Virus record (IMG/VR): IMGVR_UViG_3300025102_004999
Coordinates: 1 to 50,377 of that record
DNA: 50,377 bases
Reading direction: 5' to 3' (one strand)
Origin: a virus
Shown: positions 10,189 to 31,246 of the stretch, piece after piece
Layout: each line of letters starts with the position of its first letter
How positions within the stretch are numbered: the first letter of the stretch is position 1
Translations under genes and position numbers: made by a program
The notes under the pieces: generated by a model
What the model saw: the letters and a program-made list of their open reading frames with translations, nothing else
Database searches by the model: none
Told to the model about the DNA's origin: nothing

Positions 10189-11319
10189 ATGAAAAACACT
10201 ACTGCAAAGTTTTGTTTTAACACAATGGTAAATAACGAAGCTCATGTCATCACAAGGATGTTAGAGAGTGTTTACGAGTATATCGACTATTGGGTTATTC
10301 AAGATAATGGTTCAACTGATGGAACACAAGATATAATTAAGAACTTCTTTGAAGCTAAAGGAATACCTGGTTTCTTATATCAATTAGATTGGTGGAAGGG
10401 TCATGGAATAAACAGAGACCATTGTATAAAAACTGCATTAAGTGCAGACCATGGGTGTGATTGGATACTTAGAGTTGATGCAGACGAACAATTACAAGTG
10501 GATGATGATTTTGATTGGTCTGTATTTAACGATACATCCATTCAGAGTTTCAATGTACCATGTCAAGGGCCAGGTGTAAAGTATTTTAGAACTTGGTTAT
10601 GGAATGCAAAAGAACCATGGGCATTCTACCCAGAAAAAGCGCATGAGACAATTTATTTAGATAGAGATGATGTTGGTGAAGGATTTCAACGAGTACCATT
10701 AGACAAAAAGTTTAGACACATTCTAACTAACGATGGACAAACTTGGTTACAACCAATGAAGTTTTTAAAAGATGCATTAAACTTAGAACTTGATGTAGTC
10801 CCAAACAATAAAGTCTTAGAGGATAATTATCATTTATTCTACATAGCAAAATCCTATCACGATACACTTGGTGATAATTTTCCATTTGGTGAAGACCATA
10901 GGAAAGAGTTTGCAAGACGATGTATATTTTATTTTGAACAATATCTTTATAAAGTAAATCCAGAGTACAAAGAGAATAATTTAGTATCATCTACAAAAGA
11001 TGAATTTTCTTATTGGTGTTGTTGTGGAATAGCAGCTGCATACAGGTGGATGGGTCAAATTGATAAACAAATAGAGTGGTTGAATAAAAGTGTTGAGTTT
11101 TGTCACGACAGAAATGAATCATACGCCAGATTGGCAGAAATATACTTGGAACGAAAACACTTTAGTAAAGCATTACAATGTACTAAAATGTTAGTAGATT
11201 TAAACAGAAAAAACCCATTCCCAAATCTTCAGTTTATAATAGAGGATACCGCATATTACGATACAAGTGAATATCCAAAAGAACTTCATACTAAAGCATT
11301 AAGAGGATTGAATGGCTAA
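10189..11319 (+). CDS. Glycosyltransferase family 2 with TPR-like C-terminus
   Basis: This 376-residue protein opens with a GT-A fold: FNTMVNNEAHVITRML, WVIQDNGSTDGTQDII and the metal-binding DxD in LRVDADEQL near residue 100. After about residue 210 it becomes helical, and SYARLAEIYLERKHFSKAL near 315 looks like a TPR repeat. GT2 proteins with TPR tails are common in Bacteroidetes and phage glycan loci. The stop overlaps glf by 8 bases, so the two probably act on the same glycan. Substrate unknown. Confidence 0.82.
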   Translation: MKNTTAKFCFNTMVNNEAHVITRMLESVYEYIDYWVIQDNGSTDGTQDIIKNFFEAKGIPGFLYQLDWWKGHGINRDHCIKTALSADHGCDWILRVDADEQLQVDDDFDWSVFNDTSIQSFNVPCQGPGVKYFRTWLWNAKEPWAFYPEKAHETIYLDRDDVGEGFQRVPLDKKFRHILTNDGQTWLQPMKFLKDALNLELDVVPNNKVLEDNYHLFYIAKSYHDTLGDNFPFGEDHRKEFARRCIFYFEQYLYKVNPEYKENNLVSSTKDEFSYWCCCGIAAAYRWMGQIDKQIEWLNKSVEFCHDRNESYARLAEIYLERKHFSKALQCTKMLVDLNRKNPFPNLQFIIEDTAYYDTSEYPKELHTKALRGLNG

Positions 11320-12403
11320 ATACGATTACATTATTGTAGGTTCTGGATTCTTTGGTGCAGTATGTGCATACGAACTTAGAGAAAAAGGTAAAAAGGTTCT
11401 TGTATTAGAAAAACGAGACCACATCGGTGGTAATTGTTATACCGAAGAAATAGAAGGTATTCATGTACACAAATATGGACCACATATATTTCATACAAAT
11501 AATGATAAGGTTTGGCATTGGATAAATCAGTTTGTAGATTTTCATCAATTCCAATTGAATATAGTTGCAAACTATAAGGGTGAAATATATCCGTTACCTT
11601 TCAATATGTATACATTCAACAAAATGTGGGGTGTAACGACACCCGAAGGAGCAAAACAAAGGATTGAATCACAAAGATTTAAGGATACTCCAACTAATTT
11701 AGAAGAACAGGCGAAAGCACTTGTTGGTGACGACATTTACGAAAAGTTAATAAAAGGTTACACCCAAAAACAATGGATGAAGCCAGCTAAGTTGTTACCA
11801 AAGTCAATTATCAAAAGATTGCCTGTAAGATACACATATAATAACAATTACTTCAATGACAAATATCAAGGAATACCAATCGGTGGATACACTCAGATAT
11901 TTGAAAGACTATTAGAAGGTATTGAAGTATTTACAGAAACGGATTATTTTGATAAAAAAGACTTTTGGGATGATATGGGTAATAAAGTAATTTATACAGG
12001 TCCGATTGATAAGTACTTCGATTACAAATATGGTGACTTAGAATACAAGTCTTTACATTGGATGCATAAAATGTATAAATCAAAAGATAATTATCAAGGA
12101 TGTGCATTAATGAACTATACGGATTCAGAAACACCTTATACTCGAACCATAGAACATAAACATTTTGATAATCAGAATCAAAAAGGAACTTATGTTAGTT
12201 GGGAATATCCACAACTTTACGAAAGAGGGGTAGAACCATATTATCCTGTAAATGATAAAATTAACAATGAGATGTATAACAAATATAAAAAACTTGCGGA
12301 TGGTCAAGATAAAGTAATATTTGGTGGTAGGTTGGCAGAGTACAAATACTATGATATGCATCAAGTAATCGCATCCGCACTTAAGAAAGTAGAAAGTTTA
12401 TGA
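11312..12403 (+). CDS. glf: UDP-galactopyranose mutase
   Basis: This 363-residue flavoenzyme has the FAD-binding N-terminus YIIVGSGFFGAVCAYEL (GxGxxG), then LVLEKRDHIGGNC and the family signature KYGPHIFHTNN. Conserved YTQKQWMKPAKLLPKSI and PIDKYFDYKYG follow, matching the usual length of about 370-390. It converts UDP-galactopyranose to UDP-galactofuranose, a sugar mostly used in surface polysaccharides. It overlaps its neighbours on both sides (8 and 4 bases). Its position inside the replication block, away from the main glycan island, is unusual. Confidence 0.93.
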   Translation: MAKYDYIIVGSGFFGAVCAYELREKGKKVLVLEKRDHIGGNCYTEEIEGIHVHKYGPHIFHTNNDKVWHWINQFVDFHQFQLNIVANYKGEIYPLPFNMYTFNKMWGVTTPEGAKQRIESQRFKDTPTNLEEQAKALVGDDIYEKLIKGYTQKQWMKPAKLLPKSIIKRLPVRYTYNNNYFNDKYQGIPIGGYTQIFERLLEGIEVFTETDYFDKKDFWDDMGNKVIYTGPIDKYFDYKYGDLEYKSLHWMHKMYKSKDNYQGCALMNYTDSETPYTRTIEHKHFDNQNQKGTYVSWEYPQLYERGVEPYYPVNDKINNEMYNKYKKLADGQDKVIFGGRLAEYKYYDMHQVIASALKKVESL

Positions 12404-12957
12404 TAGTAATAGATGATTTTATAAAAGACGAAAGTCTATTGAATGATTTAAAGAATGACACCACATTTTTTAATGATAAAAGTTATATGTGGTGGGATGG
12501 TTGGTGGAATTCACCTACCGATACACTTAAAAAAAGGTTGATAGAATACATTTGGGGTGAGAACTCACCATACGAACCATTAAGTGTTACAGGATTCGAA
12601 TATTGGACAGGCATTTACTCAGAGTTTGAAGAAAAGGATGAACTACCATTCCATTTTGACAAAGACGAAGCACATTACTGGAGAACAAACGAAATTATTA
12701 CACCAATAATTGGAACAGTTTACTATCCTTGGGAAAATGATATTGATGGTGGTTATCTTGAAATATATCCACATGGTCAAGATGGTGAACCTGAAAGATT
12801 AGAACCAAAGTATAATAGACTGGTTATATTCCCTGCAGGCGCCCATCCACATAGAGTTACTAAAGTTACTCGTGGTACAAGACACGCAATAGCAATTAAT
12901 CTATGGGATATCGAACCAAGTGGATTAAAAAGTGGTGATATAATTTTGGAAAATTAA
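12400..12957 (+). CDS. 2-oxoglutarate/Fe(II)-dependent oxygenase-like protein
   Basis: This 185-residue protein has the iron-binding triad pattern of the prolyl-4-hydroxylase-like family: HFDKD near residue 86 (HxD), a distal His in AHPHRV near 150, and Arg in GTRHAIAINLW for 2-oxoglutarate. GTVYYPWENDIDGGYLEI is the typical jelly-roll strand before the distal His. The start overlaps the glf stop as ATGA. It could hydroxylate a protein, a sugar or a nucleotide; the sequence does not say which. Another promoter begins inside its last codons. Confidence 0.72.
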   Translation: MIVIDDFIKDESLLNDLKNDTTFFNDKSYMWWDGWWNSPTDTLKKRLIEYIWGENSPYEPLSVTGFEYWTGIYSEFEEKDELPFHFDKDEAHYWRTNEIITPIIGTVYYPWENDIDGGYLEIYPHGQDGEPERLEPKYNRLVIFPAGAHPHRVTKVTRGTRHAIAINLWDIEPSGLKSGDIILEN

Positions 12958-12976
12958 AATAAATTTCGTATATTAG
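12945..12976 (+). promoter_or_regulatory. Bacteroidetes-type promoter upstream of the HTH protein
   Basis: TTTG at 12945-12948, 19 bases, then GTATATTAG at 12968-12976. The predicted transcript start is near 12981, which excludes the in-frame GTG at 12976 and leaves about 10 bases before ATG 12991. The -33 box lies in the last codons of the oxygenase gene. Confidence 0.75.
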
Positions 12977-12990
12977 TGAAAAGATTTAGA

Positions 12991-13194
12991 ATGGCATTAA
13001 GAGGTGAATTACATCCACAACATAAATTAACGGAAAGACAAGTAAGGTCTATTCGTAAATTATGGCAAGTGGGTCATCGTAATATTAGAGTATTGGCAAG
13101 AAACAATGGAGTATCACCTGCTAACATAAGAAAAATTGTTAGAGGTGAAACTTGGAAACACTTACTATTTGGTGAGTTTAACGAGTATCAATGA
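12991..13194 (+). CDS. Small helix-turn-helix DNA-binding protein
   Basis: This 67-residue basic protein contains HKLTERQVRSIRKLW, then VLARNNGVSPANIRKIVRG and a closing TWKHL. This is the HTH layout often fused to phage HNH homing endonucleases (LTE..V..IR.L...G.S...IA...GVS...I..I..G..W). Here it stands alone with no nuclease domain. It is the first gene of the transcript that continues into the Mom-like genes and DNA polymerase, so it may be a regulator of that block or a remnant of a mobile endonuclease. The ATG at 12991 fits the promoter position. Confidence 0.7.
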   Translation: MALRGELHPQHKLTERQVRSIRKLWQVGHRNIRVLARNNGVSPANIRKIVRGETWKHLLFGEFNEYQ

Positions 13195-13943
13195 AAATTA
13201 AAGGGAAAGAGTATACAGATATTTCAAAGTTATCCGTAAGACCTATCTCAAAATCAGTAGCAAAGGACATTATCATAAAAAACCATTATAGTGGTATATG
13301 GACAAAGGTTAGTTATTGTTTGGGATTGTATATTGAGGATAACTCACACTCTTTCTTTTCATCGACAGATAAGTTAATCGGTGTTGCAACATATGGTGAC
13401 CCAATCGGAAGACACTCTGGGCAATCAATATCAGAGTTATTGGATAGAAAAGAAGTATTAGAACTTACAAGATTATTTGTATTTGATGGATACGGATGTA
13501 ACATTGAAAGTTGGTTTGTAGGTCAAACATTTAAGTGGTTAAGAACCTACGCAAAACACATCAAAGGATTAATTTCATACTCAGACCCCAAAGCAGGTCA
13601 TTTAGGAACTGTATATCAGTCAACTAATTGGGTATACCAAGGAAATAGAATAAGACCAAATGATAGTTGGTTATTTAAGTTTGAAGAAAATGGGGAGTGG
13701 CAACATGGTAGAACAATATTTCCATATTATGGAACTAATAACCCCACCAAAATACAAAAGGTAATTGGTAAAACTTTTTGGATTAAAAAAGAACCAAGAA
13801 AGCATCGATACATTTATATTTTGGATAAGTCAAAAAAAAGTCGTATATTAAAGAGTTTAAAATATCCTTCACTACCATATCCTAAACAGGGTGAGTTATT
13901 TGAAGAAGAAATAAAAAAATTAGAACCAATTGAAAGAACCTAA
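13191..13943 (+). CDS. Mom-like DNA-modification protein, copy A
   Basis: This 250-residue protein shows the signature set of the Mom (adenine carbamoylmethylation) family, a GNAT-like fold: NHYSGIW near residue 31, LIGVATYGDPIGR, LELTRLFVFDGYG, NIESWFVGQTFKWLR, SYSDPKAGHLG and VYQSTNWVYQG. In phage Mu, Mom converts adenine to N6-carbamoylmethyladenine and shields DNA from restriction. The C-terminal region (RKHRYIYIL..KKSRILKSL) is basic. It overlaps the HTH gene (ATGA) and the next Mom-like gene. It is one of three paralogues here. The family call is from pattern recognition. Confidence 0.72.
   Translation: MKIKGKEYTDISKLSVRPISKSVAKDIIIKNHYSGIWTKVSYCLGLYIEDNSHSFFSSTDKLIGVATYGDPIGRHSGQSISELLDRKEVLELTRLFVFDGYGCNIESWFVGQTFKWLRTYAKHIKGLISYSDPKAGHLGTVYQSTNWVYQGNRIRPNDSWLFKFEENGEWQHGRTIFPYYGTNNPTKIQKVIGKTFWIKKEPRKHRYIYILDKSKKSRILKSLKYPSLPYPKQGELFEEEIKKLEPIERT
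13820..13851 (+). promoter_or_regulatory. Internal Bacteroidetes-type promoter before Mom-like copy B
   Basis: TTTG at 13820-13823, 19 bases, then GTATATTAA at 13843-13851, inside the last 120 bases of Mom-like copy A. It would give copy B its own transcript with a leader of about 75 bases. It lies in coding sequence, so chance is harder to exclude, but the exact spacing matches the intergenic examples. Confidence 0.55.
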
Positions 13944-14718
13944 TAAACATTATGTAGACGCCTCAAAGGTTTCAATCAGAGAAATCAATAAAAGTGTTGC
14001 AAAACATATGATAGTGAAGTATCACTACTCTCACGCATGGACAATGTGTAGATACGCACTTGGTGTGTATTACAAAGGTGATGGTGAGTTTTTTGGTAGT
14101 GAAAAACTAATTGGTTGTTTGGTATATGGATATCCCGTAGGTCGTTCAGCGATTAAGTCTGTAATTGATGGTTTAGAAAAAGATGAGTGTTTAGAATTGA
14201 CAAGATTGTTTATACACGATGGATATGGTTCAAATGTAGAATCATACTCAATGGGTCAGTCTTTTAAATGGATGAGAGAAAATGCACCAAATATTAAGAT
14301 GTTATTGAGTTACGCAGACCCTGAACAATTACACCTCGGTGGCATTTACCAAGCAACTAATTGGTTATATCAAGATTGTCGTGATATACAACTAATGCCA
14401 AACTATTCAGTATCACTAACTGAAAATCCTTACAATTGGATTCATTCGAGAACTGTATTCTCAAAATGGGGTTCACATAATGTAGAACACTTAAAAACAG
14501 AAATAGGTAAACAAAACAAATCATGTTTTTGGCGAAAGAAAGAAGCACCTAAACATAGGTACATTCAAATCTTAGGTCAAAACAAATCTGAGAAACGAAA
14601 ACTTAGTAAGATGTTAAAACATAAAACAAGTCCGTATCCAAAAGACCCTGAGGAGTTTTTACCACCTATTGAAAAACATGAAACTTATACGCCAGAAAAC
14701 GCAGTTAACTTTTGGTAA
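13930..14718 (+). CDS. Mom-like DNA-modification protein, copy B
   Basis: This 262-residue paralogue of copy A has the same block order: KYHYSHAW, LIGCLVYGYPVGR, LELTRLFIHDGYG, NVESYSMGQSFKWMR, SYADPEQLHLG and IYQATNWLYQ. The N-termini align across their whole length (SVAKDIIIKNHYS versus SVAKHMIVKYHYS), which supports the upstream TTG start at 13930; the next ATG (14008) would remove this conserved segment. It overlaps copy A by 14 bases. The tandem copies probably arose by duplication and have since diverged strongly. It may modify a different sequence context or act with copy A. Confidence 0.72.
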   Translation: MKEPNKHYVDASKVSIREINKSVAKHMIVKYHYSHAWTMCRYALGVYYKGDGEFFGSEKLIGCLVYGYPVGRSAIKSVIDGLEKDECLELTRLFIHDGYGSNVESYSMGQSFKWMRENAPNIKMLLSYADPEQLHLGGIYQATNWLYQDCRDIQLMPNYSVSLTENPYNWIHSRTVFSKWGSHNVEHLKTEIGKQNKSCFWRKKEAPKHRYIQILGQNKSEKRKLSKMLKHKTSPYPKDPEEFLPPIEKHETYTPENAVNFW

Positions 14719-14742
14719 AGTCAAAATAATTTCGTATATTTA
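14711..14742 (+). promoter_or_regulatory. Bacteroidetes-type promoter at the DNA polymerase start
   Basis: TTTG at 14711-14714, 19 bases, then GTATATTTA at 14734-14742. Only 4 bases separate the -7 octamer from the polymerase ATG at 14747, so the predicted transcription start coincides with the start codon and the mRNA would be leaderless. Confidence 0.75.
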
Positions 14743-14746
14743 ACAT

Positions 14747-17263
14747 ATGTATCAAAATGTATTCTTCGAAAAAGAAAAGTCTATCATCCATTGTTGGGAT
14801 GATGAAAAAGGTTACTTTACATCTAAGTATCGTAGGTACGCCTATGTAAGAGATGGTAATGGAGCACATCAATCCATTCATGGTGAACGACTTAAGAAAT
14901 TAAATTATTGGAAACAAGATGATGACTTAAAATTATATGAGTCTGATGTTAATGAAATGACGAGGTTTCTAATTGATGAGTATGGTGATTCAGACGAACT
15001 ATCAACAGGACATACAATTCTAACATTTGATATTGAGGTTGAAATGAATAGTGGGTTGCCTGATATTGAAACTGCAAGTAACGCAATTACTTCAATCGCA
15101 GCACATGACTCAATTACAAATGACTATTTTGTCTATGTAGTTAACAAAGGTGAAAAGATTGATAAAACAATCAAAGGTGCAAAGGTAGAATCATTTGATA
15201 CTGAAGAGGGATTATTATCAGCGTTTATGTCCAAGTGGAGAGAGATAAATCCAACTATTGTAACGGGGTGGAATATTGATTTCTTTGATGTTACATATCT
15301 TTACAATAGATATAAACTACTATTCGGTCAACAATATGCAAATCAATTATCACCAATTGGTAAAGTATCATACAACAAGTACAGAAACAGATATATTATT
15401 GCAGGAGTATCTGCATTAGATTATCTCGCTTTATATAAGTGTTATAACTTTACAGAACTACCCAACTATCGATTAGATACTGTTGCAACAATTGAGTTAG
15501 GTCGAGGTAAGATTGAGTATGAAGGAAACTTAGACCAACTATTCAGAGATGATATTGAAAAGTTTATTGAGTATAACTTAGTTGATGTTGAGTTGGTAGT
15601 TGACTTGGATAAGAAATTACAATTCATTGACTTAGCAAGGGCAATATGTCATACAGGTCATGTGTTCTACGAAGACTTTCTGTTTTCATCTAAATGGTTA
15701 GAGGGAGCTATTCTTACATTCCTTAGAAGGAGTGGTAGGGTAGCACCCAATAAACCATGGAGAAAGAAACGAAACGCAGATGGGTCTGATGGTGAAGGGA
15801 AGTTTACAGGCGCATATGTAAAAGAACCAAAACCTGGTCTTTACAAATGGGTTTATGATTTGGATTTAACATCACTATATCCATCAATCATTATGAGTAT
15901 CAATATCTCACCTGAAACTAAGATTGGTAAACTTAAGAATTATGTAGCAGAAGACCATATGAGAGGTAAGATTGATACTTACTCTATTTTGGATGATGAG
16001 GGTAATGAGTTTCCACCACTACCTAAAGATAAATTTCTAAAGTTTATTGAAAAGAATAGATACTCTGTTGCTGCAAATGGTGTTTTATATAGAACAGATA
16101 AAGTTGGAGTTATACCTGAAATACTAAGTGTTTGGTTTGACAAACGAGTTGAATACAAAGACTTGATGAAAAAGTATGGTAAAGAAGGTAATGACGAACA
16201 ATACAAGTTTTATGGTAAACGACAATTAGTACAAAAGATTATGTTAAACTCATTGTATGGGGTGTTGGGATTACCATCATTCAGATTCTACGATGTGGAT
16301 AACGCAGAAGCAACTACAATTACAGGTCAAACTGTAATTAAAACAACTGAGTTGATTGCAAATCAATATTATTCAAAAGTAATAGGAAAAGAAGATGACT
16401 ACAATGTTTATACCGATACTGATTCTGTTTTTTATCAAGCAGCGCCGTTAGTAAAAGCTAGGAATCCACAACTTAATGAAGAGTCGGATGAAGAAATGAT
16501 TCCTGCGATTATATCCGCAGCAAAAGAAGTCGAAGGTCATATCAACAAAGTTTATGATACGATGGCAAAAAAGTTATTTAACATCGATACACATAAATTT
16601 GATATTAAACAAGAAACGATTGCAAAGGGTGGGTTTTGGGTATCAAAGAAAAGATACGCACAATGGATTATCAATGATAATGAAGTTGATTGTGATAAGT
16701 TAGATGTGAAAGGATTGGATGTAAAAAGAAGTTCATTCCCAACATATTTTAAGGAAGTTATGAAGACTGTTTTGTTAGATATTCTAAGGTCGGTTGATAA
16801 AAAGGAGATTGATACTAAGATTCTTGATTACAAAAAAGGTATGGAAGACCGACCATTCATTGATATCGCAAAGAACTCAGCGGTCAAAGGTATGAGTAAG
16901 TATACAACAAAGACACAAGTATTAGGTGAATTCCAAAAGGGGTCACCTGCGCATGTTAAGGCAGCAATAACATATAATCAATTACTTGCTTTCTATAAAG
17001 TACCATACAAGTACGAACCAATGAAAGATGGTGATAAGATTAAGTGGGTATATTTGAAAAAGAATCCTCTCGGATTAGATACGACAGGACTAAAAGGTCA
17101 CAATGACCCACCTCAGATTTTAAATCTTGTAGAACAATATATTGACTACGATAAAATTTGGGAAAAGGAGTTAGAAAATAAACTTGATGACTTCTATAAA
17201 GCTATGGATTGGGAGAAACCAAATCCAAATCTAAATAAAGCTTCAGAATTTTTTGGATTTTAA
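14747..17263 (+). CDS. 43: DNA polymerase family B, T4 gp43-like
   Basis: This 838-residue polymerase carries both exonuclease and polymerase motifs in order. Exo I is FDIEVEMN near residue 95, Exo II GWNIDFFD near 175, Exo III YNLVDVEL near 275. Motif A is DLTSLYPSII near 374, motif B KIMLNSLYG near 497, motif C YTDTDSVF near 556, and a KKRYA motif lies near 634. It is about 60 residues shorter than T4 gp43 but has every catalytic carboxylate I can check, so it should be a proofreading replicase. It ends SEFFGF, a plausible clamp-binding tail. It overlaps Mom-like copy C by one base. Confidence 0.95.
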   Translation: MYQNVFFEKEKSIIHCWDDEKGYFTSKYRRYAYVRDGNGAHQSIHGERLKKLNYWKQDDDLKLYESDVNEMTRFLIDEYGDSDELSTGHTILTFDIEVEMNSGLPDIETASNAITSIAAHDSITNDYFVYVVNKGEKIDKTIKGAKVESFDTEEGLLSAFMSKWREINPTIVTGWNIDFFDVTYLYNRYKLLFGQQYANQLSPIGKVSYNKYRNRYIIAGVSALDYLALYKCYNFTELPNYRLDTVATIELGRGKIEYEGNLDQLFRDDIEKFIEYNLVDVELVVDLDKKLQFIDLARAICHTGHVFYEDFLFSSKWLEGAILTFLRRSGRVAPNKPWRKKRNADGSDGEGKFTGAYVKEPKPGLYKWVYDLDLTSLYPSIIMSINISPETKIGKLKNYVAEDHMRGKIDTYSILDDEGNEFPPLPKDKFLKFIEKNRYSVAANGVLYRTDKVGVIPEILSVWFDKRVEYKDLMKKYGKEGNDEQYKFYGKRQLVQKIMLNSLYGVLGLPSFRFYDVDNAEATTITGQTVIKTTELIANQYYSKVIGKEDDYNVYTDTDSVFYQAAPLVKARNPQLNEESDEEMIPAIISAAKEVEGHINKVYDTMAKKLFNIDTHKFDIKQETIAKGGFWVSKKRYAQWIINDNEVDCDKLDVKGLDVKRSSFPTYFKEVMKTVLLDILRSVDKKEIDTKILDYKKGMEDRPFIDIAKNSAVKGMSKYTTKTQVLGEFQKGSPAHVKAAITYNQLLAFYKVPYKYEPMKDGDKIKWVYLKKNPLGLDTTGLKGHNDPPQILNLVEQYIDYDKIWEKELENKLDDFYKAMDWEKPNPNLNKASEFFGF

Positions 17264-17877
17264 TGAGTGTAACAAATTACATAGTTGAAAAGTGTCCAAG
17301 AAGTCAAGTAGTTGATTTTATTGAAAAATACCATTACTCTAAAAATATGAATGGATTAAAAACTTCATATTGTTTTAAGTTAATGGATGGTAACAATATG
17401 ATTGGGGCAATTGTATATGGTAAGATTGGAATGGGTGGAGTAGAACAAAAGTATACAAATAATCCTGATAAAATATTAGAATTAAAAAGATTAGTTTGTG
17501 TAGATGATACACCTAAAAATACAGAGTCTTACTTTATAGGTTCGACTCTTAGATGGTTACAGAGAAACACCGATTTAGATATGATTATATCATATGCAGA
17601 TAAATCATTTGGACATGAGGGTGTGGTTTACAAAGCTACAAACTTTGAATTTAAAGGTGAAACTCAACCAGGTCGTGTTATTATGTATAATGGATTTAGA
17701 TATCACGATAAAACGATTAGAACTAAACATAATGGTAAGTTTAAACCATTTGCGTTAGAGATTAGAAAAGCACTTGAAAATGGTAAAGCAAAGTATGAAA
17801 AGACCAAACCAAAAAACATTTATATATACCATTTCAAAAAAAGACGATTAAAAATGTTAAAATGGTTTGGATTTTAA
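17263..17877 (+). CDS. Mom-like DNA-modification protein, copy C
   Basis: This 204-residue protein is shorter and more divergent than copies A and B but keeps the blocks KYHYSKN, MIGAIVYGKIG, ILELKRLVCVDD, NTESYFIGSTLRWLQ, ISYADKSFGHEG and VYKATNFEFKG. The C-terminus is basic (HFKKRRLKMLKWFGF) and ends WFGF, like the FFGF end of the polymerase, so both could bind the clamp (inference). It is joined to the polymerase gene through TAATG. Its place between polymerase and clamp suggests modification close to the fork or timed with replication. Confidence 0.68.
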   Translation: MSVTNYIVEKCPRSQVVDFIEKYHYSKNMNGLKTSYCFKLMDGNNMIGAIVYGKIGMGGVEQKYTNNPDKILELKRLVCVDDTPKNTESYFIGSTLRWLQRNTDLDMIISYADKSFGHEGVVYKATNFEFKGETQPGRVIMYNGFRYHDKTIRTKHNGKFKPFALEIRKALENGKAKYEKTKPKNIYIYHFKKRRLKMLKWFGF

Positions 17878-17897
17878 AAATAAATTTCGTATATTAG
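17866..17897 (+). promoter_or_regulatory. Bacteroidetes-type promoter upstream of gp45
   Basis: TTTG at 17866-17869, 19 bases, then GTATATTAG at 17889-17897. The predicted start is near 17901, giving a leader of about 29 A/T-rich bases before ATG 17930. The -33 box overlaps the end of Mom-like copy C. Confidence 0.78.
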
Positions 17898-17929
17898 TAT
17901 AATAATAAATCAATAGTAAAAAGTAAATT

Positions 17930-18625
17930 ATGAAAAAAAGCTCGTTTGAAGGGTTCATTACTCGATATAATTTGGGTGGTGAGGTAGAATCAGTAAAGAT
18001 TGATTCAACAGATGCAGGGTTGTCAGTAAAATTCATTTCTGATGATAAGACCCTATTAGGAAATGTAAGTAGTGATAACAAAGACTTTCCAAATGGAGAG
18101 TATGGTGTTTACACTACATCTCAATTAAAAGGACTATTATCTGTATTAGATTCAGATATTAGTGTAAAAGAAGGTGACGCAGCACTTGTGTTCTCAGATA
18201 AAGGTACTTCAGTAAACTATATGTTGGCTGACCTTTCTGTAATACCTGTTGTTCCAGATTTGAAACAATTACCTGATTTTACATCTACTATCAAAATGGA
18301 CAATGACTTCGTAAACAAATTCGTAAAGTCTAAAGGTGCATTATCTGATTCAGATACATTTACATTTAGTTGTAAAAGTAACAAAGGTGAAGTAATCTTA
18401 GGTTATTCAAAGATTAACTCTAACAGAATCTCAATCAATGTAGAATGTGAGTGTGATGGTGATGTAGAACCAATATCATTCTCAGCTAAGTACTTAAAGG
18501 AAATCCTTAATGCTAACAAGGGTGCAAAATCATCTTCATTGAAGATTTCACCAAATGGATTAGCTCATGTTTCATTTGAAAATGATGGATTTAAGTCTAA
18601 CTATTATTTAGTGGAGATTAAGTAA
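17930..18625 (+). CDS. 45: Sliding clamp, T4 gp45-like
   Basis: This 231-residue protein matches the length and two-domain pattern of gp45 (228 in T4). The N-terminal half contains TTSQLKGLLSVLDSDI and a repeat of similar topology follows, with FSAKYLKEILNANKG near residue 185. It would form a trimeric ring tethering gp43 and, in T4, also activating late transcription. It has its own promoter and leads the clamp/clamp-loader operon. The assignment is supported by gp44 and gp62 homologues immediately downstream. Confidence 0.85.
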   Translation: MKKSSFEGFITRYNLGGEVESVKIDSTDAGLSVKFISDDKTLLGNVSSDNKDFPNGEYGVYTTSQLKGLLSVLDSDISVKEGDAALVFSDKGTSVNYMLADLSVIPVVPDLKQLPDFTSTIKMDNDFVNKFVKSKGALSDSDTFTFSCKSNKGEVILGYSKINSNRISINVECECDGDVEPISFSAKYLKEILNANKGAKSSSLKISPNGLAHVSFENDGFKSNYYLVEIK

Positions 18626-24168: not shown

Positions 24169-25581
24169 ATGAGCATAGAACTACCAAAACTAAAGAAGGT
24201 ATCTAAGAATAAGGTTAAGAAACCAAAGATACTTTTACTTTCCGATGATTTACGATTACATAGTGGGATTGCAACACAATCAAAAGAAATCGTACTATCA
24301 ACAGTACACAAATATGATTGGGTACAATTGGGGGCTGCATTAAAACATCCCGACCATGGTAAACAATTCATTTTAGATGATGATGTTAGAAAACTTACAG
24401 GCATAGAAGATGCATCTGTAAAGATATACGCCCATACAAGTTATGGTAATCCTGAAGTTTTAAGAGAATTATTGAATGTAGAAAAACCAGACGCAATACT
24501 ACACTTTACTGACCCAAGATTTTGGGGATGGTTGTATGATATGGAAAATGAGGTTAGACAGATTTGTCCAATCATGTATTACAATATATGGGACTCATTA
24601 CCTGACCCACATTGGAATGCACCATTTTACGCAAGTTGTGACTTGTTGTTAGGTATATCCAAACAAACATATGGTATTAACAAAAGAGTAATGGATTGGT
24701 ATGGTGAAGATAGAGAAGATTGGTCTTTCAAGTATATTCCACATGGAGTAACTAACTTATTCAAACCACTATCAGATACAGATACTAATTTAATAGCATA
24801 CAAAGAAGAATGTGGTATTAATGATTATGACTTTATTCTCGGATGGTGTAACAGAAACATTCGTAGAAAAGTTCCAGGTGATGTTGTTTTAGGAGTAGAA
24901 GAGTTTGCAAAGAAACATCCAAATAAAAAAGTACTATTGTTCATGCACACAAATCCAATTGATGATAATGGTACAGACCTTCCTGAATTGGTAAAAATGA
25001 ATGTAACTAATTGTGATGTAAAGTTTTCAGATGGAAAACTAAGTACGGAAGGATTAAATATGTTTTATAACTCGTGTGATGTGGTATTGAATGTCGCATC
25101 AAACGAAGGGTTTGGTTTGGGTTCTTGTGAAGCATTACGAGCAGGTACTCCTATCATTGTAAATGTTACAGGTGGATTACAAGACCAATGTGGATTTAAA
25201 AGAAATGGTGAGTTCTTAACTGGAGATGATTATGTTGAGATTGGTTCTTTACACGATAAAGATAATCCAATTATAGACGAACTGACTTGGGGTGAATGGG
25301 TTGAACCAATCTGGCCTTCTAATCGTTCACTACAAGGGTCACCCGTTACTCCTTATATATTTGATGATAGATGTTCTTATAAAGACATCGGTTCGGCAAT
25401 AGATAAATGGTATAGTAAGGGTAGGGATGAGTGTACATCCGCAGGTATGAAAGGACATGAATTTATTATGGGTGCAGGTGATATGGCAGCCGAAACAATG
25501 GGTAAGAAATTTATTGAAGCAATCGATGGTTGTTTTGAAAATTGGAAACCAAGACAAAGATTTGATATTTACAAGATATGA
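24169..25581 (+). CDS. Glycosyltransferase family 4-like
   Basis: This 470-residue protein has a Lys-rich start and then a GT-B fold: ILLLSDDLRLHSGIATQS (donor-binding Gly region) and, in the second half, DVVLNVASNEGFGLGSCEAL followed by GTPIIVNVTGGLQDQ. This is the GT4 E-x7-E-type signature. It would transfer a sugar from a nucleotide donor to a glycan. It is linked by 4 bases of overlap to a second GT4 gene. Both are longer than average, with C-terminal helical additions. Acceptor and donor cannot be told from sequence. Confidence 0.82.
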   Translation: MSIELPKLKKVSKNKVKKPKILLLSDDLRLHSGIATQSKEIVLSTVHKYDWVQLGAALKHPDHGKQFILDDDVRKLTGIEDASVKIYAHTSYGNPEVLRELLNVEKPDAILHFTDPRFWGWLYDMENEVRQICPIMYYNIWDSLPDPHWNAPFYASCDLLLGISKQTYGINKRVMDWYGEDREDWSFKYIPHGVTNLFKPLSDTDTNLIAYKEECGINDYDFILGWCNRNIRRKVPGDVVLGVEEFAKKHPNKKVLLFMHTNPIDDNGTDLPELVKMNVTNCDVKFSDGKLSTEGLNMFYNSCDVVLNVASNEGFGLGSCEALRAGTPIIVNVTGGLQDQCGFKRNGEFLTGDDYVEIGSLHDKDNPIIDELTWGEWVEPIWPSNRSLQGSPVTPYIFDDRCSYKDIGSAIDKWYSKGRDECTSAGMKGHEFIMGAGDMAAETMGKKFIEAIDGCFENWKPRQRFDIYKI

Positions 25582-26858
25582 AAAAAGTATGTGTAATTAG
25601 TTGTCCAATAGCTACAAGAAGTGGTTATGGTGCAAGAAGTAGAGATTTCGTAAGGTCATTAATTCAGTTAAAGGGTGATGAGTGGGACATTAGAATATTG
25701 TCTCAACGATGGGGACAAACTCCTATCAACGCATTGACACCTGATGATTCAGATTTGACTTCAAGAATCAGTCCTAAAATGGAAACGAAGCCAGATATTT
25801 GGATTCAAATGACAATTCCATCAGAGTTTCAACCAGTAGGTCATTTTAATATTGGTGTATCAGCAGTTATCGAAACATCAGATGCACCTGCAGAATTTAT
25901 TGATGGGTGTAATAGAATGGACTTAACTATGGTTTCGTCAGAACATTCAGCAAGAACTTTATCGGCAGTTTATGATAAACTCAATGACCAGACAAAACAA
26001 AAGATGGGTGAGTTGAAATTAGAAAAACCTGTTGAAGTTTTATTCGAAGGATTTGACACAAAGGTTTTTGACAATAAAGCACCTATAAACAATACTGTTA
26101 AAAAAGTATTTGACAAAATACCAGAAAACTTTTGTTTCTTATTTGTGGGTCATTGGTTGCCAGGTGCAGATGGTCAAGATAGAAAAAACATATATTCATT
26201 AGTAAAAGTATTTTTGAATACATTTAAGGGAACATCTTTTAAAAACAAAACTAAACCTGCGTTGGTTCTAAAAACTAATAATGGACAACCATCAATATCA
26301 AATATACATCGACTAAGAAAAACAATCGAAAGATGTAAAAATAGAATCGGTGGAACTAACTTTCCTAATATTTATATTTTAGATGGTGATTTGACCGATG
26401 AAGAAATGAATTCAGTATACAATCATCCAAAAGTAAAATCTCATGTATCATTTACTCATGGTGAAGGATTCGGTAGACCATTACTTGAGGCATGTGTTAG
26501 TGGTAAACCAATTATAGCATCAGCTTGGAGTGGTCATGTAGATTTCTTACATAAAGAATATAACTTTTTAGTAGGTGGTAAATTAGAGAATGTTCATAAA
26601 TCAGCTGCAAACAAATGGATTCTTGAACAAGCAAAATGGTTCAAGATTGACCATCAACAAGCAGGTGGTGTTCTAAAAACAGTTTATAACAATTACAAAA
26701 AAGCAGTGGTAATGTCTCGTAAAAACAGACATTATGTAAAAACCAACTTTACTCAAGATAAGATGACAGAGAAGTTAGGTGAGTTGTTAACACAATATAA
26801 AGTTGGTGAAGGTCCTACTCAAGTTGGATTGAAACTACCTAAATTGAAGAAAAAGTAA
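25578..26858 (+). CDS. Glycosyltransferase family 4-like, second copy
   Basis: This 426-residue GT-B protein contains SGYGARSRDFVRSLIQL at the N-terminus, LFVGHWLPGADGQDRKNI at the domain junction, and VSFTHGEGFGRPLLEACVSGKPIIASAW as the nucleotide-sugar binding signature. It ends KLPKLKKK, echoing the ELPKLKKV near the start of the preceding GT4, which may be a shared interaction segment. The two overlap (ATGA) and probably act in succession on the same glycan. Confidence 0.82.
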   Translation: MKKVCVISCPIATRSGYGARSRDFVRSLIQLKGDEWDIRILSQRWGQTPINALTPDDSDLTSRISPKMETKPDIWIQMTIPSEFQPVGHFNIGVSAVIETSDAPAEFIDGCNRMDLTMVSSEHSARTLSAVYDKLNDQTKQKMGELKLEKPVEVLFEGFDTKVFDNKAPINNTVKKVFDKIPENFCFLFVGHWLPGADGQDRKNIYSLVKVFLNTFKGTSFKNKTKPALVLKTNNGQPSISNIHRLRKTIERCKNRIGGTNFPNIYILDGDLTDEEMNSVYNHPKVKSHVSFTHGEGFGRPLLEACVSGKPIIASAWSGHVDFLHKEYNFLVGGKLENVHKSAANKWILEQAKWFKIDHQQAGGVLKTVYNNYKKAVVMSRKNRHYVKTNFTQDKMTEKLGELLTQYKVGEGPTQVGLKLPKLKKK

Positions 26859-27373
26859 TGCCAGATTTTACAAGTAGACATAGAAGTAAATTAACAGACC
26901 CTACAAGAGTTTCTAAGACTAAATTAGAAAGAGGTATGGTTGCAAAGATTAGGTATAAGAAACGAGACAACACTCAGAGAGATATGTTTGTCTTTATCTT
27001 ACAACCTAAATTCAAGAATTACTTTCATTGTTTAGATTTAAAAGATTGTGCACCCGACAAGTTTACTAAACTTGCAGAGGATTTGAATGAGGTAACAAGT
27101 ACTACTCCTCAAATTAAAAAGTTAGATTTGAGTAAATTGAGAGTAGAAGTTAACTCTAAACAATTCTACACTTCTAAACTAAAGAACAAAGACCTTCAAA
27201 ATGGTTATAGAACTTTGGTTGAAAAGAATGTAGGACAGATAACAGTTTATAACTATGACTATGGTGTATTTGATAAAATAGCATCAAGGTCAGAACGAAG
27301 ACAACAAGAACAAGTTCGAAAGGACGATACGGATTTGGAGACCACACAAGATACTCCACCCGTAGGATTATAA
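26858..27373 (+). CDS. Hypothetical protein
   Basis: This basic 171-residue protein starts at the last base of the GT4 gene. Features are KLERGMVAKIRYKKRD, then FVFILQPKFKNYFHCLDLKD, suggesting a small beta barrel (SH3- or KOW-like) near residues 25-65, and YRTLVEKNVGQITVYNYDYG further on. The C-terminus is charged and disordered. I do not recognise the family. It sits inside the glycan island, but its basic character would also suit a nucleic-acid-binding or virion protein. Confidence 0.6.
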   Translation: MPDFTSRHRSKLTDPTRVSKTKLERGMVAKIRYKKRDNTQRDMFVFILQPKFKNYFHCLDLKDCAPDKFTKLAEDLNEVTSTTPQIKKLDLSKLRVEVNSKQFYTSKLKNKDLQNGYRTLVEKNVGQITVYNYDYGVFDKIASRSERRQQEQVRKDDTDLETTQDTPPVGL

Positions 27374-27382
27374 AAATAGAGT

Positions 27383-28006
27383 ATGAAAATAAGTTACGCA
27401 ATTACAGTTTGTAATGAGTTGGTAGAAATTCAAAAACTAATACCTTACTTATTAGACAATATCAGAGACGAAGATGAAATCGTAGTTCTATACGATTCTA
27501 AGAATGGTGATACAAAAGTAGAAGAATTTCTAAGAGCAAAATCAGTAAATCCAACTTACTCATGGCATAGTGGTGAGTTCGATGGACACTTCGCAAATTG
27601 GAAAAACAAATTAACAGATTTATGTAATGGTGATTACATCTTTCAGATTGACGCAGATGAAATCCCTAATAATGAATTGATTGAAAACCTTCCAGCAATC
27701 CTTGAAATGAATGGTGTTGATGTAATTCTTGTACCAAGAGTAAATTTGGTAGATGGATTAACCGATGAGTACATTCAGAAGTGGGGGTGGAAGGTTGATG
27801 ATAAAGGTCGAGTAAATTGGCCAGACCCACAATGGAGAGTTTATAAAAAATCAGACTCCATTCGTTGGATAAATAAGGTACACGAGAAACTCGATGGATA
27901 TGACACGATTTCTAATTTACCTTGGGTTGAGGAACTATCATTGTTCCATCACAAAGATATAGAAAAACAAGTAAAACAAAACGACTATTATGACACCCTC
28001 GTGTAA
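27383..28006 (+). CDS. Glycosyltransferase family 2-like
   Basis: This 207-residue GT-A protein opens ISYAITVCNELVEIQKLIPYL, has DEIVVLYDSKNGDTKVEEFL, and carries the metal-binding IFQIDADEIPNN near residue 90. A later WRVYKKSDSIRWINKVHEKL with paired His residues is common in small GT2 proteins acting on lipopolysaccharide cores. The start is 9 bases after the preceding stop. Donor and acceptor unknown. Confidence 0.8.
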   Translation: MKISYAITVCNELVEIQKLIPYLLDNIRDEDEIVVLYDSKNGDTKVEEFLRAKSVNPTYSWHSGEFDGHFANWKNKLTDLCNGDYIFQIDADEIPNNELIENLPAILEMNGVDVILVPRVNLVDGLTDEYIQKWGWKVDDKGRVNWPDPQWRVYKKSDSIRWINKVHEKLDGYDTISNLPWVEELSLFHHKDIEKQVKQNDYYDTLV

Positions 28007-28059
28007 CCCACATTTTGGGAACGATTCGTGTGTCGAAAGAAAATTTTAACAAATTTCCT

Positions 28060-29784
28060 ATGATATTAGATTGTACATTAAGAGATGGTGGGTACTACAC
28101 CAATTGGAACTTTGACACTCAGATGGTCAGAGACTTAGTACAAGCCCTTGACCTTTCGGGAGTGGGAGTAATGGAGATGGGTTACAAATCGCCTGTTAAG
28201 GGTGGTAAATATCGTAAGTGTAACGATAGGTTCATTTGGGATGTATTGGACAATAGAAAGCCAGTAAACCTCAAACTTGCGTTTATGATTGACGCAAAGG
28301 ATTTCATAAAAGGTAATGAAGTAGATTTCTCATTGATTGATGATGTTATCCATGATGGGGAAAATTCACCATTCGATATTTGTCGTCTCGCGATAAAGTA
28401 TTCGGAATTAGACCTCGCAATCGAAATCGGTAAATATATCCAATCAAAGGATTACGAATTGATAGTAAATCTGATGGGTATATCTTTATTAGATGATAGT
28501 GAAATAAATACTTTCGTAAATGATATGGGTGAATTAAAACCACTATCATTATACTTTGCTGATTCATATGGAGCATTGACTCCTGATAGAACAAAAGAGA
28601 TTGTAGAACTATTCGAAGGTGATTCGAAGATTGGGATTCATACACACGATAACCTTGGACTTGCATTCGCCAATTGTCTTGCCGCAGAATCCGAAGGGGC
28701 ACTTTGGTTAGATGGTACTTTACTTGGAATGGGTAGAGGTGTCGGAAATGTTAAAACAGAACAACTTGTAACTTACCTACAATACGCAAAAGACCAAACA
28801 AAATTTCTTTGGGGTGATAAGACACAATACAATTGTAAACCCTTACAAAAAGTTATTTCTGATTGGATGAATCCTTTGATGGAAAAATACAAATGGGGCT
28901 TTACACACAACTATATGGTTAGTGGATTGAAACACATTCACCCATTGTATCCTCAGAACTTACAACAATCGTTCTTACATCCTAATAGGATAGAAGATGT
29001 ATTACTTGACATACCTGAATCGAAGTCGTTTGATAATAAAAAACTTGATGGGGTCTTAGACCCAAAGGTTGCGATAGTTATCCCCGCAAGATACAAATCG
29101 TCAAGATTCCCTGGAAAACCTCTTGCGATGATTAATGGAAAAGAAATGATTCTTTGGGTTGCTGAACTATGTCAAAACTCGATGGTGGGTAAAGATAATG
29201 TTTACATCGCAACAGAAAACGAAGAAATTGTTGATGTTGCAAAAAACAATGGTTTAAAAGTAATCTTAACTTCAGACGAATGTCCAACGGGTACAGATAG
29301 AGTAGCAGAAGCGGCAATGGAAATAGACGCAGACTTTATCATCAATGTCCAAGGTGACGAACCTATGTTATCAGCAAACGATATTGATAAAGTTATTCAA
29401 GCTAAGATTGATAACCCTGACCATATTATAAATTGTATGGCATATTTGAATCCTCACGAAAAGATTGAAGACCCAAAGATACCAAAAGTAATCACAAATC
29501 TAAATGATGAGTTAATTTGGTGTTCAAGGAGTCCACTCCCAGGAACAAAACAGGGTAAGACCAGTAATCCAATGAAACAAGTTTGTATCTACGGATTCAA
29601 TAGAGAACATCTAAAAGACTTTGCCGATTATGGTAAAAAGACACCACTCGAATTTGAAGAAGACATTGAGATTGATAGATTTATAGAGATGGGACATAAA
29701 GTAAAAATGGTAATGGTGGACAATGTATCACACGCAGTTGACTATCCATCAGATATCGAAATCGTTGAAAAAATGTTAAGTTAA
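28060..29784 (+). CDS. HMGL-type aldolase fused to KdsB-type cytidylyltransferase
   Basis: This is a 574-residue two-domain protein. Residues 1 to about 325 are an HMG-CoA-lyase-like TIM barrel: MILDCTLRDGGYYTNW at the start, ADSYGALTPDRTKEI and IGIHTHDNLGLAFANC (metal-binding HxH) near 192. From about 330 the sequence becomes a CMP-sugar synthetase: AIVIPARYKSSRFPGKPL, ECPTGTDRVAEAA, DFIINVQGDEPM, WCSRSPLPG and PLEFEEDIEIDRFIEMG. Aldol formation of a keto-acid sugar followed by CMP activation would be a logical pair. ATG 28060 is chosen because family members begin at this motif; GTG 28030 or TTG 28015 are alternatives. Confidence 0.85.
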   Translation: MILDCTLRDGGYYTNWNFDTQMVRDLVQALDLSGVGVMEMGYKSPVKGGKYRKCNDRFIWDVLDNRKPVNLKLAFMIDAKDFIKGNEVDFSLIDDVIHDGENSPFDICRLAIKYSELDLAIEIGKYIQSKDYELIVNLMGISLLDDSEINTFVNDMGELKPLSLYFADSYGALTPDRTKEIVELFEGDSKIGIHTHDNLGLAFANCLAAESEGALWLDGTLLGMGRGVGNVKTEQLVTYLQYAKDQTKFLWGDKTQYNCKPLQKVISDWMNPLMEKYKWGFTHNYMVSGLKHIHPLYPQNLQQSFLHPNRIEDVLLDIPESKSFDNKKLDGVLDPKVAIVIPARYKSSRFPGKPLAMINGKEMILWVAELCQNSMVGKDNVYIATENEEIVDVAKNNGLKVILTSDECPTGTDRVAEAAMEIDADFIINVQGDEPMLSANDIDKVIQAKIDNPDHIINCMAYLNPHEKIEDPKIPKVITNLNDELIWCSRSPLPGTKQGKTSNPMKQVCIYGFNREHLKDFADYGKKTPLEFEEDIEIDRFIEMGHKVKMVMVDNVSHAVDYPSDIEIVEKMLS

Positions 29785-30446
29785 TGGAAGCAATAACAAT
29801 AGGACACGCAGGTGGAGTTGGTGATGGGTTAATGTTCTCATCAGTAATTAAAGAAAAGTATTGTAAAGAATACGATAGAGTATACATACAAGTACCAAGA
29901 CTAAATTGGTTATTCGAAAAACTATACAATGAGACACCAAACCTATCAACAGGTACTTGTCCTCATGAATATCACGCACCACATATAGGATTAAAATTTC
30001 AAGATGGTGTTGAACATAGTAGTTGGCGAGATTTAACTTGGGATTATGATGTAAATGAAGAGGATAGATTATATAATGAGTTGGTTCAAACGCATGGTAA
30101 AGATTACATAATCGTACATGAAAGACCACTTGATAATATGAATCGTCCAATGATTGGTATTAACAGAAAACATTTTATGAATCCAAATTTACCTGTGATA
30201 AACCTTGATGGCAGAGCAGGACATATATTGGATTACAGAAAAGTATTACAGAACGCAAAAGAAATCCATGTTTATGAAGGAAGTTTTATGAATATGGCAG
30301 ATTCAGTAACGAGTGGAGTTCCACTCTTTGGTCATTTATATTGTAAGCCACACTATTTTGATACAAAGATGGTACACCATGATATTATAAAATACATTAA
30401 AGAAAATAAGTGGCATAAACAAAAATGGAATTACATATGGGAATGA
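29784..30446 (+). CDS. GT-B / heptosyltransferase-like protein
   Basis: This 220-residue protein starts AITIGHAGGVGDGLMFSSVI, resembling the Gly-rich N-terminus of GT9 heptosyltransferases (GxxGD), and ends with VLQNAKEIHVYEGSFMNMAD followed by SGVPLFGHLY, the usual GT-B donor-site strand and helix. It is shorter than typical GT9 proteins (about 350), so it may be a reduced or divergent member. It starts on the preceding stop (TAATG). I infer a glycosyltransferase; a different GT-B-like enzyme is possible. Confidence 0.5.
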   Translation: MEAITIGHAGGVGDGLMFSSVIKEKYCKEYDRVYIQVPRLNWLFEKLYNETPNLSTGTCPHEYHAPHIGLKFQDGVEHSSWRDLTWDYDVNEEDRLYNELVQTHGKDYIIVHERPLDNMNRPMIGINRKHFMNPNLPVINLDGRAGHILDYRKVLQNAKEIHVYEGSFMNMADSVTSGVPLFGHLYCKPHYFDTKMVHHDIIKYIKENKWHKQKWNYIWE

Positions 30447-31246
30447 AATTAGGAGTAATCGGAATCGGAGCAGTAGGTTCTGCAATATCAAAAGGATTTG
30501 AATACATCGGACACGAAGTGGTTGGTTACGATATCAAAATGCCTGAGACTTCAATAGAAGATACATTAGATACAGAAATCAACTTTATTACCGTTGGTAC
30601 TCCAACAGGTGCAAATGATGAATGTGATTTAACGGCAGTTAATAGTGTAATAAAACAATTAAATGACTTGGAGTATAAAGGTCTTGTAGCATTGAAAAGT
30701 ACAATTGAACCTGGTACAACAAATAGATTAAGAAAAGAATATCCAAATCTTAATATGTGTTTTGTGCCTGAATTCTTAAGAGAAAGATGTGCATACGAAG
30801 ACTTTGTATACAACAATAACATTTTAGTTGTTGGTACTGATAGTGATGAAAACTATGATTTGATTGTAAAGAGTCATGGTTCACTACCATTTCACAAAGT
30901 AAAAGTCAAAATCATTGATGCCGAACTTATGAAGTACTTCTCAAACACTTACAAAGCGATGAGAATCACATTTGCAAACTCATTCCATAAAGTAGCACAA
31001 CATTTTGGTGCAAACTATGATGCAATCAAAGACGCATTTTTATTCCATGGAGTTGGTGAAGGTCACTATCTAAATGTAAATAAAGAGTTTGGTGGTTATG
31101 GTGGTATGTGTTTACCTAAAGACACAAAGGCAATGAAAGTTCTATGTAAAAAATACGATATTGATGTAGACATATTCAGATTCATTGACGAAGAAAACGA
31201 CAAATTTGTTAAAAAAGTTCCTAAAGGAATGAGATACGAAATATAA
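30443..31246 (+). CDS. UDP-glucose/GDP-mannose dehydrogenase-like, C-terminally short
   Basis: This 267-residue protein has the NAD-binding start KLGVIGIGAVGSAISKGFEY, FITVGTPTGANDECDL, the central FSNTYKAMRITFANSFHKVA helix and the catalytic-Cys motif GGMCLPKDTKAMKVL near residue 221. Full-length enzymes have about 400 residues; the third, UDP-binding domain is absent. The catalytic residues are present, so it may still oxidise a sugar nucleotide or use another substrate. ATG 30443 gives an ATGA overlap; ATG 30425 and 30437 are in-frame alternatives. Confidence 0.78.
   Translation: MKLGVIGIGAVGSAISKGFEYIGHEVVGYDIKMPETSIEDTLDTEINFITVGTPTGANDECDLTAVNSVIKQLNDLEYKGLVALKSTIEPGTTNRLRKEYPNLNMCFVPEFLRERCAYEDFVYNNNILVVGTDSDENYDLIVKSHGSLPFHKVKVKIIDAELMKYFSNTYKAMRITFANSFHKVAQHFGANYDAIKDAFLFHGVGEGHYLNVNKEFGGYGGMCLPKDTKAMKVLCKKYDIDVDIFRFIDEENDKFVKKVPKGMRYEI

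Follow-up and report, generated by a model that had tools for sequence, protein, structure and literature searches.

Aromatic C-terminal tails, reminiscent of polymerase ends, on Mom-type DNA modification proteins of a phage with T4-like replication genes

Three genes for Mom-type proteins flank the DNA polymerase gene in IMG/VR virus record IMGVR_UViG_3300025102_004999, and two of the encoded proteins, here called MomB and MomC, end in short, conserved aromatic tails that recall the end of the polymerase itself. The window, i.e., the whole stretch of 50,377 bases analysed here, has T4-like replication genes and reads, on the + strand, a 72-amino-acid (aa) helix-turn-helix (HTH) gene, MomA, MomB, a family B polymerase, MomC, and a gp45-like sliding clamp. 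The enzymes belong to a known family; clamp-like tails on Moms appear to be the new part. Based on sequence comparison and on analogy with better-known phages, we consider it probable that sliding clamps tether these Mom enzymes, which would couple DNA modification to replication. Members of the Mom family put a bulky chemical group on DNA, and the tails suggest that this may happen while the DNA is being copied.

Results

All three open reading frames (ORFs) are present where a sequence-only reading of the window had placed them (starts at 13191, 13930, and 17263), and all encode full-length Mom-family proteins. MomA (250 aa, 13191..13943, + strand), MomB (262 aa, 13930..14718, +; TTG start, 14-nt overlap with momA), and MomC (204 aa, 17263..17877, +) scored 153.4, 161.4, and 118.8 bits, respectively, against the Pfam family PF25680 (E 8.4e-45, 2.9e-47, and 3.2e-34; curated cut-off 27.1 bits), Mu Mom itself reaching 253.3 bits. 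PHROG 1384 (‘Mom-like DNA modification protein’) was matched with E-values of 1.2e-52 (A), 6.9e-46 (B), and 9.9e-53 (C). Pairwise identities amount to 47% between A and B, 32% between A and C, and 30% between B and C, and a Pfam search found no second domain, endonuclease domains included, in any of the three. As to the ordered sequence blocks from which the family had been recognized, HYS, LELxRL, NxES, SY(A/S)D, and Yx(A/S)TN hold, whereas (I/V)xYG does not fit the set (ATYG in A, LVYG in B, IVYG in C).

AlphaFold2 models were built for MomB from 87 aligned sequences (of 109 listed proteins) and for MomC from 38 (of 41), with mean predicted local distance difference test (pLDDT) values of 88.8 and 88.9. 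The comparison of predicted structures with Mu Mom, which the sequence-only reading had proposed, bore out its assignment: the best PDB match of both models was 8bv8, Mu Mom (MomB: E 1e-13, TM-scores 0.56/0.65; MomC: E 2.3e-13, TM-scores 0.73/0.68), followed by ordinary GNAT acetyltransferases at E 5e-4 (B) and 4e-6 (C). The 8bv8 entry (‘Methylcarbamoylase mom’) is an inactive S124A mutant, and the replaced serine corresponds to S114 of Mu Mom in the numbering of AF083977 and to S107 in MomA, S105 in MomB, and S89 in MomC. An alignment of Mu Mom with the three window proteins has 25 identical positions besides the start methionine; among them are Mu H48, Y49, R101, and D139, which we take to matter in Mu Mom. 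Since the S114 equivalent and the identical positions are kept in all three proteins, A, B, and C look catalytically intact from their sequences. Sequence matches and invariant residues for A, B, and C, together with the predicted folds of B and C, uphold the claim of Mom-family membership, and that these proteins carry out a Mom-type modification of phage DNA appears highly likely.

What do the C-termini of these proteins have in common? The polymerase (T4 gp43-like by Pfam and PHROG, 838 aa, 14747..17263, +) ends in FFGF (17249..17260, +), and FFxF likewise closes every polymerase whose 3′ end is complete in the 80 loci retrieved with the polymerase as query (78 of 78; scans of the viral collection were limited to 80 loci each). 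MomC ends in KWFGF (17860..17874, +), and the resemblance to the polymerase end (EFFGF) noted earlier is real, these being the only two FGF ends among 68 listed ORFs of the window. MomB, whose tail had gone unnoticed, ends in NFW (FW at 14710..14715, +), and MomA has no such tail. The FW pair of MomB is kept across orthologues: it closes 38 of 39 distinct proteins of 256–269 aa, a length range that leaves out sister-clade proteins of 254, 255, and 278 aa, and the exception (L181) is of a sister lineage. Mean conservation in that set was 1.0 for FW, 0.62 for the 38 columns before it, and 0.78 for the rest of the protein. A wider set retrieved with a tail-less MomB query (67 distinct proteins) comprised 59 FW, 2 YW, 3 FF, 1 YF, 1 FFDI, and 1 FI ends, an aromatic pair thus occurring within the last four residues of 66 of the 67. 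For MomC, the WF core lies within the last five residues of all 13 distinct proteins that share 70% identity or more with the MomC of the window (itself included), and of none of 39 C-type proteins below 70%. In the model of MomC, residues 195–204 have pLDDT values below 50, the tail being predicted as disordered. In that of MomB, pLDDT averages 71 over residues 251–260 and 47 over residues 261–262; since confidence falls only at its end, the free MomB tail would be short.

We also asked how common such ends are irrespective of gene identity. This gene-blind check took all ORFs of 100 aa or more on the match strand of the window and 175 related loci, which gave 195 families with 627 representatives below 90% identity; an aromatic pair was defined as two adjacent aromatic residues within the last four, MomA, MomB, and MomC labels were assigned by best BLAST match, and the family count leaves out the sister-clade loci L022, L027, L031, L032, L046, L050, and L181. 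An aromatic-pair tail was present on 33 of 34 polymerases (plus three of four partial polymerase ORFs), on 35 of 35 MomB proteins (plus two partial MomB ORFs), and on four of four close MomC proteins, with none on three remote C-types of that cluster. All other representatives together had ten such ends in 518, and none occurred in the 28 other families with at least four representatives. The ten fall to a 496-aa protein (3/3 members), to a gene between polymerase and clamp that looks methyltransferase-like, to an N6/N4 DNA methylase (the L361 copy matches PF01555 at 1.6e-42), and to five single ORFs. The 496-aa protein (L059:9919-11409), encoded directly behind the clamp, ends in NKFF and had no Pfam or PHROG match at E 0.01; all three representatives of its family end in an aromatic pair. 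In one large relative (G003; ORF ends read, with a PHROG search of five ORFs), a 143-aa endonuclease (L315:13664-14095, PHROG 945) has the polymerase-tail-like end NFFDFSK, and a 113-aa protein ends in QWFD. A search of nine whole records for the FFxF-stop pattern at the DNA level says little, with 107 matches vs 91 for the reversed control.

Tails can further be compared with those of the polymerase of the same clade. In clade 1 (five contigs), a polymerase ending in SMNRFF or SMSRFF is followed by a MomB ending in SMEKFF, SMEKYF, or SMEKFI and then by the clamp. In clade 2, a polymerase with EKFFNF goes together with MomB ending in NKFFDI, MomC in NKWFK, and a DNA methylase in HDFF. Judged by likeness to its own polymerase, as a client of the same clamp might show, MomC with WF(GF) resembles FFGF, MomB has FW, or FFDI and SMEKFF in other clades, and MomA has nothing of the kind.

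A separate Mom clade carries a different C-terminus. One of its loci (L183:4613-8694) has six tandem Moms, one C-type and five of one subfamily with QxxLF-type tails, the latter five ending in QISLFD, QGILF, QGILF, QTSLF, and QTSLF. We scanned the viral collection with an alignment of these five plus L184's from which the last 15 residues had been removed, and counted one best complete Mom per locus, leaving out five further Moms and the query sources L183 and L184. Qxx[LM]F lay within the last nine residues of 56 of 73 distinct best Moms (80 loci) vs 3 of 351 other ORFs there (Fisher p 1e-50, kinship ignored); a looser form gave 65/73 vs 7/351, and after clustering at 70% the strict motif remained on 29 of 39 representatives. 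Of the strict cases (n = 59, second copies included), 56 have L and three have M at position four, 53 carry the motif at the very end, and at position two 33 have G or T and eight have L. A scan of bacterial genomes yielded ten loci, nine of them with a Mom by profile: QxxLF closes five of these Moms (from Bacteroidetes, Winogradskyella, Bacteroidales, Clostridiales, and Pelagibacter records), near forms (QLSAF, QLLLI) are carried by two, and the remaining two have neither. None of the window's A, B, or C has a C-terminal QxxLF. PMC4549789 describes the bacterial beta-clamp motif QLxLF as almost always C-terminal in transposases, and PMC3716654 gives it as QL[S/D]LF. The QxxLF Moms are alike in that the motif mostly sits at the very C-terminus, with Q first, L fourth, and F fifth, but mostly differ at the second position, which is L in the published motif. 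In the open literature searched, we found no description of QxxLF on a Mom.

Isolate phages add a third kind of C-terminus to the Mom family. Of 12 isolate Moms selected from 279 match records, eight lack a terminal aromatic pair, and four (Bacillus Riggi, Listeria LP-026, Staphylococcus Alsa_2, and Acinetobacter JeffCo; L327, L329, L330, and L334) end in FY plus one residue, preceded by a common YxLGxR-like segment. From sequence, these FY ends might represent a tag or just the place where a strand ends.

Are the three Moms of the window a set of paralogues, as had been proposed? In a tree of 76 chosen representatives, A-type and B-type proteins form two related clades, the B clade including the B-types of sister T4-like lineages, and MomC falls into a separate clade (Shimodaira–Hasegawa-like approximate likelihood ratio test, SH-aLRT, 100) with Moms of Aeromonas and Vibrio phages and C-type proteins of other contigs. 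In tblastn comparisons, a Geobacillus phage and a Corynebacterium phage have Moms with 56% identity to MomC, and Synechococcus phage S-SSM7 has one with 50%; the best isolate match of MomA is Polaribacter phage P12002L (45%). Descent of all three from one ancestor within this genome is ruled out by the separate clade of C and its 50–56% identity to other phages' Moms, and the idea of a single set must be given up. On the sequence evidence, A and B form a tandem pair that is old within this phage group, and MomC is a separate, horizontally spread Mom subfamily inserted between the polymerase and clamp genes. Sixty polymerase loci that extend 5.9 kb or more upstream comprised 34 with A and B, one with three Moms, eight with B alone, and 17 with none; A without B never occurred among them. 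Nine large records included one without a Mom, six with two, and two with three.

The place where MomC sits is occupied by various genes in relatives. Among 77 loci that include the 3′ end of the polymerase gene and, downstream of it, a clamp gene, the two genes are less than 150 bp apart in 64. The other 13 junctions include methyltransferase-like genes (L059 and L122 were read; L060-L062 have the same gap as L059), DruA/Mom-like genes (L110:2525-3118, the product of which matches DruA of Druantia in Pfam and, weakly, a Mom-like PHROG, and L111:4913-5536), a GroEL-like chaperonin gene (L129:8217-9833, by eye; same gap in L131-L133), and small ORFs, one of them phosphoesterase-like (L094 was read; L095 has the same gap); no Mom was found in these 13 at the threshold used. 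Because of this variety, we regard the polymerase-clamp junction as an insertion site and MomC as a guest there. A first MomC scan had included the tail among its patterns and a second did not; with the tail-less query, 15 loci were retrieved, of which 11 show the order polymerase, C, clamp (in several, about 210–240 bp lie between polymerase and C, with a small ORF there in G009), two are contigs that start after the polymerase, one is cut inside C, and one (L349) has another order.

In the window, as described earlier, momC is joined to the polymerase gene by TAATG, starting on the final A of the polymerase stop codon (17261-17265). A locus without momC and with a 99% identical polymerase (L054) serves as the empty site: there, 52 bp separate the polymerase stop from the clamp gene, and the identical 52 bp follow the momC stop in the window. 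Moreover, the 12-bp direct repeat TTTGGATTTTAA ends both the polymerase gene (17252..17263, +) and momC (17866..17877, +) in the window and is single in L054. Because it is doubled in the one and single in the other, the last FGF codons of momC seem to stem from the polymerase end, by recombination or by copying. The proposal of a shared clamp-binding peptide hence survives in part: a clamp-like tail is kept on Moms, but the FGF match is not independent, since it lies in the repeat, and convergence of MomC and polymerase on FGF is ruled out as stand-alone evidence. Other MomC orthologues end in WFG, WFK, or WFV, from which we take the window's final F to be a junction effect and WF to be older. 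In L349, where C precedes MomB and the polymerase and thus lies away from the polymerase 3′ end, it still ends in NKWFK.

As to the remaining genes, the 72-aa HTH gene (12976..13194, +; ATGA overlap with the momA start) has a weak, below-cut-off HTH_28 match in Pfam and HTH and HNH matches in PHROG, and relatives of it precede 34 of 35 distinct A-type genes; judging from these matches, it is possibly a small regulator or the remnant of a homing endonuclease. The gp45-like sliding clamp (231 aa, 17930..18625, +) matches PHROG 223, DNA polymerase processivity factor, at 3.1e-8, and a Pfam search gave no match for it. The element TTTCGTATATT precedes both the polymerase (14719-14746) and the clamp gene (17878-17929), a similar form sits downstream of inserted genes in relatives, and it is possibly a phage promoter element. 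Ahead of the Mom genes lie a 2OG-Fe(II) oxygenase gene (12400-12957; PF13640, 2.7e-11), in the place of which two relatives have a gene of 185 or 188 aa with a similar start, and a UDP-galactopyranose-mutase-like gene (11312-12403, labelled by eye). A long series of sugar-related-looking genes, glycosyltransferase- and epimerase-like (sequence starts, labels by eye), extends over 24169-39253.

Discussion

What could Mom enzymes gain from a polymerase-like end? We picture A, B, and C as Mom-type GNAT-fold enzymes that would add a small group to bases of the phage DNA (as for Mu, most likely to adenine) and thereby protect it from nucleases. MomB and MomC may be held on the phage's gp45-like clamp by their short C-terminal aromatic peptides, which would work like the polymerase tail, so that new DNA would be modified on leaving the fork; the tail-less MomA probably acts with B. 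The QxxLF clade would follow the same principle via the bacterial motif, using the beta clamp of the host. Our inferences here concern clamp binding, the link to replication, the chemistry, and how A, B, and C would share the work, and for carbamoylmethyl-adenine in particular we infer by analogy that it carries over from Mu. Tethering appears to be the simplest account of the tails because of the clamp-binding peptides of T4 gp43, gp55, and gp33 and the precedent of an alpha-glucosyltransferase associated with gp45.

The strongest competitor, unlikely as we judge it, accepts that the Moms modify DNA and that the tails are real linear motifs, yet has them dock on something other than the clamp, be it the second Mom subunit, a single-strand binding protein, RNA polymerase, or the DNA polymerase, or lets the MomB tail pack on its own fold. 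The FW of MomB indeed differs in sequence from the polymerase's FFxF, the absence of A without B in the 60 loci makes a contact between the B tail and A conceivable, and confidence in the MomB model stays fairly high until about residue 250, which leaves only the last residues free. On the other hand, B occurs without A in eight of those loci, the Mom tail resembles the polymerase tail of its own clade in two clades, and another Mom clade has a known bacterial clamp motif.

Improbable, in our view, is that the tails are functionless traces left by insertion at the 3′ end of the polymerase gene, whereby an incoming gene gains the last polymerase codons. This would account for TTTGGATTTTAA at both ends of momC and its single copy in the C-less L054, and for the MomB SMEKFF encoded directly behind the polymerase SMNRFF with similar codons. 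It does not account for FW on a MomB that lies upstream of the polymerase and is kept among proteins down to ~57% identity, for the WF end in L349 upstream of both B and polymerase, for a WF that stays constant while the following residue varies (G, K, V, GF), or for QxxLF, which is unlike any polymerase end seen. Similarly improbable is a Mom fold turned to another target (host DNA, RNA, or protein) or forming half of a phage restriction-modification pair, given that the residues common with Mu Mom are kept in A, B, and C, that the Moms lie among replication genes and in L349 and L361 adjoin an N6/N4 DNA methylase, and that Pfam finds no second domain in the three proteins.

Several observations weigh against clamp tethering of Moms. 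MomA is one: none of 27 non-redundant A-type proteins has an aromatic-pair tail. The B-types of the seven sister T4-like loci listed above end in KWEN, KWKN, IYEK, or FYEE. Copying may have contributed to the likeness between tails, as the terminal FGF of MomC possibly comes from a copied polymerase 3′ end, and in clade 1 the SMEKFF of MomB, given its similar codons, perhaps descends from one as well. That a gp45-like clamp was found in none of 15 contigs of the QxxLF clade speaks for tethering, but weakly, since the contigs (18–77 kb, some with Moms lacking the strict motif) may be fragments; one of the 15 has a DnaN-type clamp, and the gp45 type was detected in two of two T4-like controls. 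Neither QxxLF nor FFxF, WF, or FW occurs on the 12 isolate Moms, and Mu Mom ends in PYPK without a tail, where the window has three genes, two of them tailed. QxxLF or aromatic tails as a family-wide trait are ruled out by these isolates, with QxxLF on 0/12 and eight lacking an aromatic pair. Two of the tail-less isolate Moms come from Straboviridae, phages that have T4-type clamps. Lastly, for the larger share that T4 alpha-glucosyltransferase takes in glucosylation, PMC13216743 names expression and activity as the main determinants, rather than clamp contact.

Could the clamp tethering proposed here extend beyond this phage group? Tentatively, and with slightly more doubt than confidence, we suggest that replication and the Mom hypermodification of phages are often linked through exchangeable C-terminal tags matched to the replicating clamp, QxxLF for the beta clamp of the host and polymerase-like aromatic ends for the gp45-like clamp of the phage, and that the polymerase-clamp junction is a landing site for newly arrived DNA-modifying genes (Mom, methyltransferase-like, DruA-like), which can there take over the polymerase's tag. 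Replication-linked Moms with tails matched to clamp type were not found in the open literature searched. For Mom-type systems, known mainly from Mu, it is a practical question still to be answered how the phage gets its DNA modified in time and in full. If true, clamp tags on Moms would offer a simple answer to the timing of modification, and QxxLF, FW, and WF tails might serve as a signature of replication-fork-linked DNA-modifying enzymes among the many phage genes of unknown function.

The same idea is realized in eukaryotes, where the maintenance DNA methyltransferase is bound to PCNA. The closest known relative of the window proteins, by contrast, works at another stage: Mu Mom shares with them the Pfam family, the predicted fold (B and C), and the 25 identical positions, but mu mom is annotated as acting just before packaging, whereas the window's Mom genes adjoin replication genes. 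Mu also places a small translational activator, com, before mom; the 72-aa HTH gene is similarly placed but encodes a different kind of protein. Mom-endonuclease fusions of jumbo phages, mentioned in PMC7824862, are likewise Mom domains in large phages, although the window's A, B, and C have no endonuclease domain by Pfam. With respect to clamps, T4 offers the nearest parallels. PMC2988020 describes that gp43, gp55, and gp33 bind gp45 by similar, exchangeable short hydrophobic C-terminal peptides, and that the RB69 clamp was crystallised with the last 11 residues of its polymerase. These epitopes sit on the polymerase and on late-transcription proteins, not on DNA-modifying enzymes, and the FW of MomB differs from them in sequence. 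T4 alpha-glucosyltransferase, in turn, co-purifies with gp45 according to PMC13216743; it is a clamp-associated phage DNA-modifying enzyme, albeit of another kind and chemistry than Mom.

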